A stretch of DNA of 33,461 nucleotides from Sedimentisphaerales bacterium (GTDB lineage Bacteria; Planctomycetota; Phycisphaerae; Sedimentisphaerales; Anaerobacaceae): NCBI GenBank assembly GCA_029907605.1, contig JARYLO010000015.1, positions 1 through 33,461 of the forward strand. Direction: 5' to 3'. This document shows positions 11,462 to 20,523 of the stretch, in pieces. Within the stretch, counting starts at the first letter, position 1; the number at the start of each line of letters is the position of its first letter. Below the pieces are notes generated by a model. That model was not told the DNA's origin. It searched no databases and saw nothing but the letters and a program-made list of their open reading frames with translations. Both the position numbers and the translations under genes were made by a program.

Positions 11462-13915
11462 ATGGCAAGAACTACCCTTAAGGATCGTCTGCAGGCAAGG
11501 CAGGGATTTCTAGTTCTCATAGAGCTGGTCCCTGGGCCAGGTCGAGATACCAGGCCGATACGGCGGTTCCTTCAGGCCCTGGCAGGACCTGGCCGAAAGG
11601 AGATACCTGAGTGCTTCTGTGTATCGGCCCTTACCTTCCCGCATAATCCAGGGGGCGTGGCCAACCTAGAGCCATTGCTACTGATCACACAGATTCAGGA
11701 TGAGGGCCTTGCAGGTGACCTGGATCTTATCGCACACGTCACCTGTAAGGATCATAACAGTGCAGGTCTAAGGAGCCTGTTATCGTCATATCTGGACGCA
11801 GGGATAGAGACGGTCTTGCTGCTTACAGGCGATAGGCCAGCAGATGGCAAGGGCGTATTTGAGCTGGACAGCCTTGGTTTGCTGGATCTGGTCAGGCTGA
11901 TGAACAACCAGATCCTCTTGAACACAGAACCATCTAGGCTTGCAGTTGCAAGGAGATTCTTTGCAGGGGCGGCGGTATCGCCATTTAAGTACACAGAAGC
12001 ATCCTTATTGCAGCAGTACTACAAGCTAGAGAAGAAGCTGGCCTGCGGTGCCCAGTATATCATTACACAGGTAGGTTGGGACTGGCGTAAGAGCCAGGAG
12101 TTGTTCCTGTACCTAGCAAGGAGAAACATAACGGTGCCTGTGTTCGGAAACGTGTATCTGCTGACCAGCCTTAATGCAGCGCCTAGGTTGATGCACGATG
12201 GCAAGCTACCCGGTTGTTTTGTCAGTGACCAGTTATTGGAGAGGATCTATTCGGAGGACCTTGACGCTCACATAGAACGTGCCGCGCAGCAGGTGTCCAT
12301 GTACAGGTCCTTGGGTGCAGCAGGGGTGGATATCGCAGGCGTAGAGGATTTTGAGGTATTTATAAGGATCCTTCAGAGGGCCGCCCAGATAGGGGATCAT
12401 TGGACTAGTCACAAGGAGAACCTTTGCTGGCCGCCTGAGGATCCATTCTACCTCTTTGACCAGGCCGGCAACCAGCAGCTGCTATGTGAACCTGACAAGA
12501 CATTTAAGCACAGGTTCTTCAATGCATCGCACAGACTCTTGCTAGACAAGCGATATAGGGGATTTCGTGCCTTCAGAGGATTGATGGCCTTCTTCGGTGC
12601 AGACAAGGAGGATGGGCCCATGTACAAGCTTTTCAATGCCTTTGAACAGGCCTTCAAGTATCTGGTGTTTGAATGTCAACACTGCGGTGATTGCTTCCTG
12701 CCTGAGAACTTTGGCCTATGCACGATGGGGGGCTGCGAAAAGGGCCTGGACAATCCCCCTTGTGGAGACGCGACGGTTGAAGGCATGTGTGGTAATGACC
12801 CAAACAGGATCTGTATAGGAGAGAGGATATACCTTGCTGCTGCAGCAGAGTCCAACGGCCGGGATCGCCTGTTGTCCACGATCAATAGGCCCAGGGATCC
12901 AAGATTGTTTGGTACAAGTTCGATCATAAACTACCTATTTGACAGGGATCATGCGATGAGCCGTAAGCTTATCTTGATCGGTGAATCTATACATGCCTCC
13001 ATACCGAAGGTAGGCCAGGTGATGAGGCAACTAGAGGATAGCGGGCCGGATGGTTATCTAGGTCCAAATCCTGCACTTGATTACATGAAGGCACTGATCG
13101 AGTCGCAGGCAGATGATGGTGCCGACTATATCGCCGTCAATGTGGATGCATTTGGGGAGGACGACGTATCGAAGGCAGTAGAGATGATGCGTCGATATGT
13201 CAGGCTGGTCAGGCAATGGGGTAAGGGGGTACCAGTATGTGTTGACAGCGGATATAATCAGGTCCTTATAGCAGGATTGGAGGAATGGTACAAGACAGAC
13301 AGGCCAGTCAAGCCGCCGCTTGTCAACTCTGTCAAGACCTACACCGTAGATCAGATCCTCCCATTGAGGTCTAGGTTCGACTTTGCTGTGGTAGGCCTAC
13401 TGGTTGGCGAGGGGAGTAAGGAGGGGCAGCGTGGCTATTGCTCGATAGACCAGGTGGTCAGGCTTGCAGAGGAGATATTCGATGCAGCAGTGGGAAGATA
13501 TGGTTTCAGGCCAGACCAGCTCTTCTTTGATTCTACGGTATTCCCGCTAGCAATAGATATGCCCATGGAGCCAGGTGTGCCAGGCTATACTTACAGGACC
13601 TTTGAGACTATCAAGCAGATCAGATCCTTGCCAAAGTTTAAGGGCGTGCATTGTTCATTGGGTATCAGCAATTGTGTCAGGGACCTGCCTGGCAGGAAGG
13701 TTGGGGTTTGCAGGGCATATCTTGCCAAGGCCATGGAATACGGCCTCGATGCTGCTATCGTGAATGTCAGCCACAAGTACGGCTCTGTCGAACCTGCGTC
13801 TGACCTGCTGGAGTTGGTTGATGCATACGCAAAGATGGATGGCAGCCCTGAGAGGACCCAGAGGGCCATGGAGTTGATGGCCAGGTTCTGCCAACAGGCC
13901 AGGAAACCGAGCTGA
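11462..13915 (+). CDS. Fused methylenetetrahydrofolate reductase / MetV / pterin methyltransferase
   Basis: An 817-aa protein with three parts. Residues 1-290 are an MTHFR-type TIM barrel (HVTCKDHN, LLTGDRPAD, YIITQVGWD). About 345-480 is the cysteine-rich MTHFR_C/MetV domain (CQHCGDC, LCTMGGCEKG, PCGD, MCGNDPNRICIGERIY), likely to hold an Fe-S cluster or zinc. About 500-800 is a pterin-binding barrel of the methyltetrahydrofolate methyltransferase (AcsE/MetH-middle) type (ILIGESIHASIP, DDGADYIAVNVD, VCVDSGYN, NSVKTYTVDQILPL). Separate MetF, MetV and MeTr proteins act in the methyl branch of the acetyl-CoA pathway; here they are one chain, suggesting channelling of CH3-THF. I choose ATG 11462 over GTG 11456 because AGG lies 5 nt upstream. 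It is convergent with trmD, separated by 1 nt. Confidence 0.85.
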   Translation: MARTTLKDRLQARQGFLVLIELVPGPGRDTRPIRRFLQALAGPGRKEIPECFCVSALTFPHNPGGVANLEPLLLITQIQDEGLAGDLDLIAHVTCKDHNSAGLRSLLSSYLDAGIETVLLLTGDRPADGKGVFELDSLGLLDLVRLMNNQILLNTEPSRLAVARRFFAGAAVSPFKYTEASLLQQYYKLEKKLACGAQYIITQVGWDWRKSQELFLYLARRNITVPVFGNVYLLTSLNAAPRLMHDGKLPGCFVSDQLLERIYSEDLDAHIERAAQQVSMYRSLGAAGVDIAGVEDFEVFIRILQRAAQIGDHWTSHKENLCWPPEDPFYLFDQAGNQQLLCEPDKTFKHRFFNASHRLLLDKRYRGFRAFRGLMAFFGADKEDGPMYKLFNAFEQAFKYLVFECQHCGDCFLPENFGLCTMGGCEKGLDNPPCGDATVEGMCGNDPNRICIGERIYLAAAAESNGRDRLLSTINRPRDPRLFGTSSIINYLFDRDHAMSRKLILIGESIHASIPKVGQVMRQLEDSGPDGYLGPNPALDYMKALIESQADDGADYIAVNVDAFGEDDVSKAVEMMRRYVRLVRQWGKGVPVCVDSGYNQVLIAGLEEWYKTDRPVKPPLVNSVKTYTVDQILPLRSRFDFAVVGLLVGEGSKEGQRGYCSIDQVVRLAEEIFDAAVGRYGFRPDQLFFDSTVFPLAIDMPMEPGVPGYTYRTFETIKQIRSLPKFKGVHCSLGISNCVRDLPGRKVGVCRAYLAKAMEYGLDAAIVNVSHKYGSVEPASDLLELVDAYAKMDGSPERTQRAMELMARFCQQARKPS

Positions 13916-19350: not shown

Positions 19351-20523
19351 CTAGATAGGTCCGTAGAACTCCTCTGCGGCACGCTTGAATGTGTTCTCTG
19401 CTACGTCCATGATGCGGATCTCCCTGATGGCATTCTCGACCGAGTCGCTGGCATGTGCGGCATTTACCATCACATCATGGCCGAACTCCCTGCGGATAGA
19501 TCCAGGAGGGGCCTTGGATGGATCGGTCGGGCCTAATGCCTCGCGGATCTTGCGGATCGCATCTGGCCCCTCATAAACAAGGGCGATGCACTTTTCCTTT
19601 CCAGGCTGATCTAGCCGCCCAGCAGGACATTCGTCGGGCCTGAACCCAGACATGAACTTTATCAATCTTGCAAACTGTTCCTCAGCAAAAAGTGGGCCTA
19701 CAATCTCTCCAAGCCTTTCCATATACTCTGTCGGTATCCTCAACTCCAGCCCCTCCTCTAGCAAGGCCTTGGCCTTTGCAGTGGCAACAGGCCTTAGCCT
19801 TTCGTGCAGTGCCTGCCGGACAGGAGCATAAAACTCCATTGCCTGGGCTGGGCTCATATGCACCACCTTGATGCCGATTATATAGAGCCCGGTCCTAGAA
19901 AAGGAATCGACCATGTTCCCCGGCCTTCCTGTAGGGAACTGGAAGTTGTCCGGTTTGATCAGCACTAGGGTCTTTTGGACCTGTTGATCCGGAGGGTATT
20001 GAACCACACCCTCCAGAAGGCCCCCATCTGTGCCTGAGTACGTTGCCCATAATCTGATCCACTCCTTGGCCTGTGCTAGGGAAGGGGCAGTAAGCACTGC
20101 AGGCTCAAAGTAGACAACCTCGCCACTGCTATTGCAGACCAGGTCTCCATACGTGTCGCGGATGGTCTGGCCACCGTATTGTCCCAGGCGGAACATACCT
20201 ACCACCTCCATGATCCTGGCCACTGCATCATCGCCTCCAAATAGCAGGACCATGGCCCGCCTTCTTCTTCCGGTCTTAGGGTCTGGGCCCAACTGATTCA
20301 GGATATAGTTAGAGATCAGCCTCTGGATGACCTTATCTTGAGGGTCATCATCACAGATCGCTAACCTGGCATATTCCTCTGCCAACTGCCTGCTTGGTGC
20401 AAACATCCTTGCACTGAGTAGTTCCAATCCGCTCCTGCTTATAAGCCTGCTGATGATCCCACCGGTACGGGACTTATAGAGCGAATATGGTGTTATGATT
20501 ACGTATGTCAATTCCTTTGCCAT
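19351..20523 (-). CDS. Two-domain nucleoside-diphosphate-kinase-like protein
   Basis: A 390-aa protein with two tandem NDK folds. The C-terminal half (about 185-370) has KTLVLIKPDNF at its start and VMVNAAHASDS near its end, the latter matching the NDK active-site loop with its phosphohistidine. The N-terminal half (TYVIITPYSLYKSRTGGII...IRDTYGDLV) looks like a diverged NDK copy without an obvious active-site His. The C-terminal half also holds an insertion between core elements (about 255-310). It probably makes or senses NTPs, possibly as a regulatory pseudo-dimer; activity is inference. AAGGGG upstream of ATG 20523 supports the start. Confidence 0.8.
   Translation of the reverse strand: MAKELTYVIITPYSLYKSRTGGIISRLISRSGLELLSARMFAPSRQLAEEYARLAICDDDPQDKVIQRLISNYILNQLGPDPKTGRRRRAMVLLFGGDDAVARIMEVVGMFRLGQYGGQTIRDTYGDLVCNSSGEVVYFEPAVLTAPSLAQAKEWIRLWATYSGTDGGLLEGVVQYPPDQQVQKTLVLIKPDNFQFPTGRPGNMVDSFSRTGLYIIGIKVVHMSPAQAMEFYAPVRQALHERLRPVATAKAKALLEEGLELRIPTEYMERLGEIVGPLFAEEQFARLIKFMSGFRPDECPAGRLDQPGKEKCIALVYEGPDAIRKIREALGPTDPSKAPPGSIRREFGHDVMVNAAHASDSVENAIREIRIMDVAENTFKRAAEEFYGPI

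Follow-up and report, generated by a model that had tools for sequence, protein, structure and literature searches.

The window analysed here is the whole 33,461-nucleotide stretch of a Sedimentisphaerales bacterium (assembly GCA_029907605.1, contig JARYLO010000015.1, forward strand), and the gene under study lies in it as one long fusion (Table 1). An alternative in-frame start, GTG 11456, gives 819 codons; the stop is at 13913-13915, the frame has no internal stops, and residues of the fusion protein are numbered from that GTG. The neighbours are a gene for an HTH/membrane protein and, on the opposite strand, a trmD-looking gene near SRP54.

Table 1. Coordinates of the fusion gene and of the parts of its product
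Feature	Position	Strand	Basis or description
MetF-MetV(C half)-MeTr fusion gene	11462..13915	+	Single open frame; 817 aa from ATG 11462
MTHFR (MetF) barrel, residues 6-311	11471..12388	+	Pfam, structure, alignment; E23, H94, D126, K194, Q205 invariant
DUF5981 / C-terminal half of MetV, residues 392-479	12629..12892	+	Pfam
Stretch C407 to C453 holding the eight invariant cysteines, candidate ligands for metal or Fe-S	12674..12814	+	Alignments
Linker between MetV half and MeTr, residues 480-502	12893..12961	+	Remnants 5' of some stand-alone MeTr genes in relatives
MeTr barrel, residues 503-816	12962..13903	+	Pfam, structure, alignment; N562, D597, N624, D692, N739 kept

Three Pfam families match the protein above their cut-offs: MTHFR over residues 88-265 (E 1.8e-16), DUF5981 ("MTHFR C terminal") over 392-479 (E 9.3e-14) and Pterin_bind over 547-770 (E 3.7e-9). 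The NCBIfam models for HcyMT/MTHFR, CODH/ACS methyltransferase and MetH give partial matches, all below cut-off, and the chain does not combine the Hcy, folate, B12 and activation domains of a MetH. In an AlphaFold2 model built from an alignment of 45 fusions (A1; pLDDT 88.8, pTM 0.89), the N-terminal barrel (6-311) resembles Thermus MTHFR 3apy (Z 25.1, rmsd 3.1 over 276 residues), while the C-terminal barrel (502-816) resembles the folate domain of MetH, the O-demethylase MeTr and AcsE, with Z scores of 28-29 for 3k13, 4o1e, 5voo and 2e7f (29.3 for 3k13, 28.9 for 4o1e, the O-demethylase MeTr). For the MetV half, a sequence search for a solved structure returned chance-level matches only (E 0.13 and 0.17). 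The sequence-only reading had described a single-chain MetF, MetV and methyltransferase; Pfam and fold confirm the three-part frame, but MetV is represented by its C-terminal half rather than in full.

The residues listed for the MetF barrel, together with all eight cysteines, are identical in 54 of 54 aligned fusions, a set that includes three records, one titled Kiritimatiellota, one Lentisphaerae and one from another bacterium (38% identical). We take E23, D126 and Q205, matched by motif, to be the equivalents of E28, D120 and Q183 of E. coli MetF. On fold, Pfam and catalytic and flavin residues the fusion is a MetF-type MTHFR, and it is predicted to be a methylene-THF reductase.

The MetV part had been credited with about eight cysteines, and we find exactly eight (407, 410, 413, 422, 427, 436, 445 and 453), invariant in 45 of the 45 fusions of A1, in the pattern of the stand-alone MetV of G326. 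Stand-alone MetV proteins of relatives are 221-222 aa long, with DUF5981 covering residues 110-205 (beginning at 110 or 112); unlike the fusion they have an N-terminal half, of about 110 aa, and in the fusion the 80 residues before 392-479 hold no conserved cysteine. What the fusion has of MetV is DUF5981 and the eight cysteines, and neither the N-terminal half nor the status of a separate subunit. In acetogens, according to PMC8760232, methylene-THF reductase of the MetVF type (type II) likewise combines a MetF with a cysteine-rich MetV C-terminal domain, although MetV and MetF are separate subunits there and no MeTr is attached. Other planctomycetes carry MetF joined to the C half of MetV in chains without MeTr, so this part of the fusion is not unique to the three-part proteins. 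In two genomes outside the order (G235 and G277) the MetF-MetV gene lies immediately 5' of a separate MeTr gene, an arrangement that hints at the route by which the triple fusion arose.

The five folate residues of the C-terminal barrel (N562, D597, N624, D692 and N739) are all present, and the loss of methyl-THF-binding residues that would have refuted the sequence-only proposal is not seen. The Asp/Asn residues among them presumably correspond to D75, N96, D160 and N199 of AcsE, a match made by motif; in the alignment the column of N624 is lysine in the three AcsE rows, which looks like an alignment matter. The barrel shares its fold and key Asp/Asn residues with AcsE and the MetH folate domain (2e7f, 3k13, 5voo), although identity is about 22-25% and the fusion MeTr is covalently tied to a reductase. 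A single clade of the MeTr tree unites the fusions with the stand-alone copies of relatives, apart from AcsE, including that of the same order, and from the methyltransferases of G040, G235 and G277. By fold and folate residues the domain is a methyl-THF:corrinoid methyltransferase, with methyl transfer itself a prediction.

In the genome that carries the fusion (G000; 2.89 Mb, assembly 94.6% complete) we found no conventional MetH or MetE, with neither a Met_synt_B12 domain (MetH) nor Meth_synt_2 (MetE) detected. The B12-binding_2 domain occurs in one 214-aa frame only, that of a lone 209-aa corrinoid protein consisting of B12-binding_2 and B12-binding and no other domain. Two frames (675 and 313 aa) match Hcy methyltransferase; neither has a B12 domain, and they correspond to a 666-aa HcyMT-MTHFR protein and a 305-aa HcyMT. 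A formate-THF ligase gene is present, and a gene for a RamA/RACo-like activase is split into two pieces, which sit at contig ends (C165 and C110). Of the features of a split methionine synthase of the Phaeobacter type, the genome has a separate HcyMT, corrinoid protein and RamA-like activase, and no full MetH or MetE was found in it. The sequence-only reading had set against its own proposal a complete unrelated MetH plus a stand-alone MetF; what the genome holds is no MetH, and a second MTHFR that is fused to a Hcy methyltransferase. Against such a split synthase, the genes for the four parts are spread over separate contigs; the fusion has no C1 gene as a neighbour, and we found no conserved operon around it in this genome. 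Next to the HcyMT-MTHFR gene, a gene at L132:2902-3528 looks from its sequence like that of the flavin-dependent thymidylate synthase ThyX.

We think it probable that the fusion supplies the methyl-folate part of a split methionine synthase with four components, in which the pterin subunit has become fused to its own MetVF-type MTHFR. The MetF barrel would reduce methylene-THF to methyl-THF with electrons arriving through the eight-cysteine MetV half, and the MeTr barrel would methylate the Co(I) of the 209-aa corrinoid protein, which occurs alone. From the corrinoid, one of the separate Hcy methyltransferases (HcyMT-MTHFR or the 305-aa protein) would carry the methyl group on to homocysteine to make methionine, while the RACo/RamA-like ATPase would rescue oxidised Co(II), so that the parts together would replace MetH. 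This reading rests on the identity of the domains, the kept residues, the failure to find MetH, MetE or CdhD, the partner genes and the gene neighbourhoods of relatives. The reactions themselves are putative, as are the electron donor, the direction of flow and any hand-over from barrel to barrel.

Price et al. 2018 (PMC5764234) describe such a division of labour in Phaeobacter inhibens, where HcyMT, pterin-binding and corrinoid proteins and a RamA-like activase replace MetH, with a DUF1638 partner included. The planctomycete likewise has a separate HcyMT, corrinoid protein, pterin protein and RamA-like activase, although in Phaeobacter the pterin protein stands alone, whereas that of the planctomycete shares a chain with MetF and half of MetV, and a second MTHFR is fused to one of the planctomycete Hcy methyltransferases. 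In Ruegeria pomeroyi, according to PMC12478193 (PNAS 2025), a dual role of MtgC and MtgD has been proven with glycine betaine; there too a lone corrinoid protein works with a methyltransferase, shown to be two-way in that organism, and metF2 lies downstream of mtgD, so that reductase and methyltransferase are neighbours, although the genes are separate there and fused in the planctomycete. The one MtgD-like sequence that we used (G040) falls outside the clade of the fusion MeTr.

Relatives group the fusion or its MeTr with likely partner genes. In G395 the genes for the corrinoid protein, FTHFS, FolD and the fusion are co-directional, with a Hcy methyltransferase gene divergent on the other strand; G357 has the order corrinoid-FTHFS-fusion, and in G381 a MeTr frame opens directly 3' of the corrinoid gene. 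MeTr lies upstream of the HcyMT-MTHFR gene in G299 and G303, and the B3_Pla record has an HdrA-like gene, MetV, MetF and then MeTr. Taken as a pathway, these arrangements may be read as formate to methyl-THF to corrinoid to methionine. The earlier suggestion that the fusion could supply a corrinoid protein or methionine synthesis fits with this clustering and with the lone corrinoid protein, Hcy methyltransferases and RACo-like activase of the genome.

The same machinery might instead run mainly in reverse, with methyl groups from methoxy or methylamine compounds passing by way of the corrinoid and MeTr to THF, and the MetF half oxidising methyl-THF to methylene-THF. The O-demethylase MeTr (4o1e) is among the closest folds, and in G157, G209 and G261 the corrinoid gene has as its neighbour a gene for a protein of the URO-D family (family checked for G157), relatives of which can be demethylases. 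In other planctomycetes, loci L071, L072 and L074 cluster MTHFR/MetV, MeTr, corrinoid and RACo-like genes with URO-D-looking genes, as judged by eye. However, we found no donor methyltransferase beside the corrinoid gene or the fusion in the genome studied, by eye and with Pfam, MetH is absent almost throughout the order, and it is a Hcy methyltransferase gene that stands beside MeTr in G299 and G303. Mainly reverse use seems unlikely to us, but since MtgC and MtgD work in both directions in Ruegeria (PMC12478193) and URO-D-family genes sit beside the corrinoid gene in three relatives, demethylation is a serious rival or side role.

The split synthase proposed here has parts that are widespread among the 118 Sedimentisphaerales genomes. 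MeTr of this clade is found in 110 of them (78 with a fusion, 29 with stand-alone copies only and three with fragments) and is lacking in eight; the RACo C-terminal domain is found in 104, Hcy methyltransferase in 111 and a corrinoid match in 106, a column that includes some partial matches and, in G057 and G335, merely the B12 part of MetH. All four parts occur together in 85 of 118 genomes, while at least one is missing in 33, many of which are incomplete assemblies. Full-length MetH is present in three (G057, G335 and G371), all without RACo and two without MeTr, and MetE-type matches occur in 13, one of which (G335) consists of weak frames of 346-355 aa only. The split system is not a strict substitute for MetH or MetE, since the 12 genomes with full-length MetE retain MeTr (fused in 11) and in G371 the fusion coexists with MetH. 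In G375 and G383 we found none of the three: MetH, MetE or a MeTr of the present family.

Some relatives carry genes that overlap in part with MetH or with the activase. At L102:4583-7950 (G365), L103 (G369) and L121 (G377), chains made up of folate, B12 and partial activation domains resemble a C-terminal portion of MetH; these genomes also carry the fusion, and in G365 and G369 a separate Hcy methyltransferase frame lies beside the chain. Stand-alone proteins of 219-220 aa, weakly similar to the activation domain of MetH, are encoded at L105:2340-3002 (G332) and L106:3026-3685 (G372), directly adjoining a second corrinoid-like gene, and are possibly another reactivation system. At L145:6118-8181 (G127), a hydantoinase/oxoprolinase-like ATPase gene, recognized by eye, is divergent from a lone corrinoid gene and is a candidate second activase.

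We also considered whether the C-terminal barrel might be a relic or a structural domain in a protein that is solely a methylene-THF reductase. Loss of this kind appears to have happened in 11 of 82 distinct fusions (counted after merging sequences identical over the last 200 residues), which lack one to three of N624, D692 and N739. However, all five residues are kept in the fusion studied here, in 71 of the 82 and in all 41 distinct stand-alone copies of the clade, and where the MetF-MetV half has been lost it is the MeTr half that persists, all of which makes a relic very improbable for this gene. The 41 stand-alone copies are 40 plus L266 (383 aa, its match starting at residue 435), with L064 (G235, outside the order) left out, and one of them (L272, G401) has internal stops. 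Among the 11 genomes with an altered barrel, nine hold a second, intact MeTr (G384, G392, G354, G373, G368, G385, G319, G308 and the FK_Sedi_B_Bin.55 record); the other two altered fusions are those of G393 (71% complete) and of the record behind L207. Further MeTr copies were sought in the genomes with G handles; some of the named records are the same contigs as these. Two intact MeTr copies occur in G300 and in the CSMAG_1168 record (L187 and L232), which are counter-cases. As the altered barrels mostly have a second intact MeTr in the same genome, the MeTr barrel seems to be kept under selection if it is the only MeTr in a genome and to be dispensable if it is not.

On a tree of residues 1-500, explaining the barrel losses takes four changes of label, and well-supported branches force three of the four; on the MeTr tree the fusion label changes seven times. 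A decayed MetV or linker stretch is detected just 5' of the stand-alone MeTr at three of 35 loci (L220, L228 and L230; E <= 0.01) and is visible by eye also at L110, L223 and L227; the other four upstream matches are genuine MetF or MetV neighbours. In the downstream control, the two matches are genuine MTHFR neighbours.

The sequence-only reading had proposed checking the genome for CO dehydrogenase/acetyl-CoA synthase. A role of the fusion in the methyl branch of the acetyl-CoA (Wood-Ljungdahl) pathway, feeding a corrinoid Fe-S protein, has some basis in G373 and G385, where a divergent fusion lies inside a CODH/ACS cluster in the order CdhD-AcsE-FTHFS-fusion. These fusions, however, lack N624, D692 and N739 and lie beside a separate AcsE, and CdhD was found in none of eight genomes (the one studied and seven relatives); we rejected a link to CODH/ACS for this genome and regard the acetyl-CoA role as the least probable of the readings considered. 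CODH/ACS-type RACo, assigned by score and by neighbours where inspected, occurs in 17 of 29 genomes with stand-alone MeTr only versus 10 of 89 others, counts uncorrected for kinship. Altered-MeTr fusions at L116:6988-9465 (G384), L205, L207 and L250 (G373) lie near what looks like a formate dehydrogenase and NADH-linked (NuoE/F-like) module, which was checked with Pfam in L250 only.

A further and more tentative idea, on which we would not rely at present, concerns channelling in the putative split synthase. Methyl-THF would pass unreleased from the MetF barrel to the MeTr barrel and on to the corrinoid, and in acetyl-CoA lineages the two halves would have been separated by decay, leaving either MeTr alone or a second fusion with a disabled barrel in the CODH/ACS cluster. 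The relatives, with an intact barrel, an altered barrel plus a second copy, or a freed barrel, offer a natural experiment for testing such channelling between two folate enzymes.

In the literature searched, which missed most subscription journals, we recognized no paper describing a MetF-MetV-MeTr fusion; the single modules are known already, and neither the three-part chain nor its tie to a split methionine synthase across the order turned up there. If correct, the proposal would explain how methionine can be made in an order of planctomycetes in which MetH and MetE are both unseen in the majority of members sampled; automated calls of auxotrophy for these organisms would need correction. 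It would also link the anabolic synthesis of methionine to an MTHFR of the MetVF type, which is mostly treated in connection with acetogens.

Elsewhere in the window, the reverse-strand gene at 19351-20523 encodes a 390-aa protein whose similarity to nucleoside diphosphate kinase falls into two stretches apart from each other, which suggests a kinase with a long additional segment.
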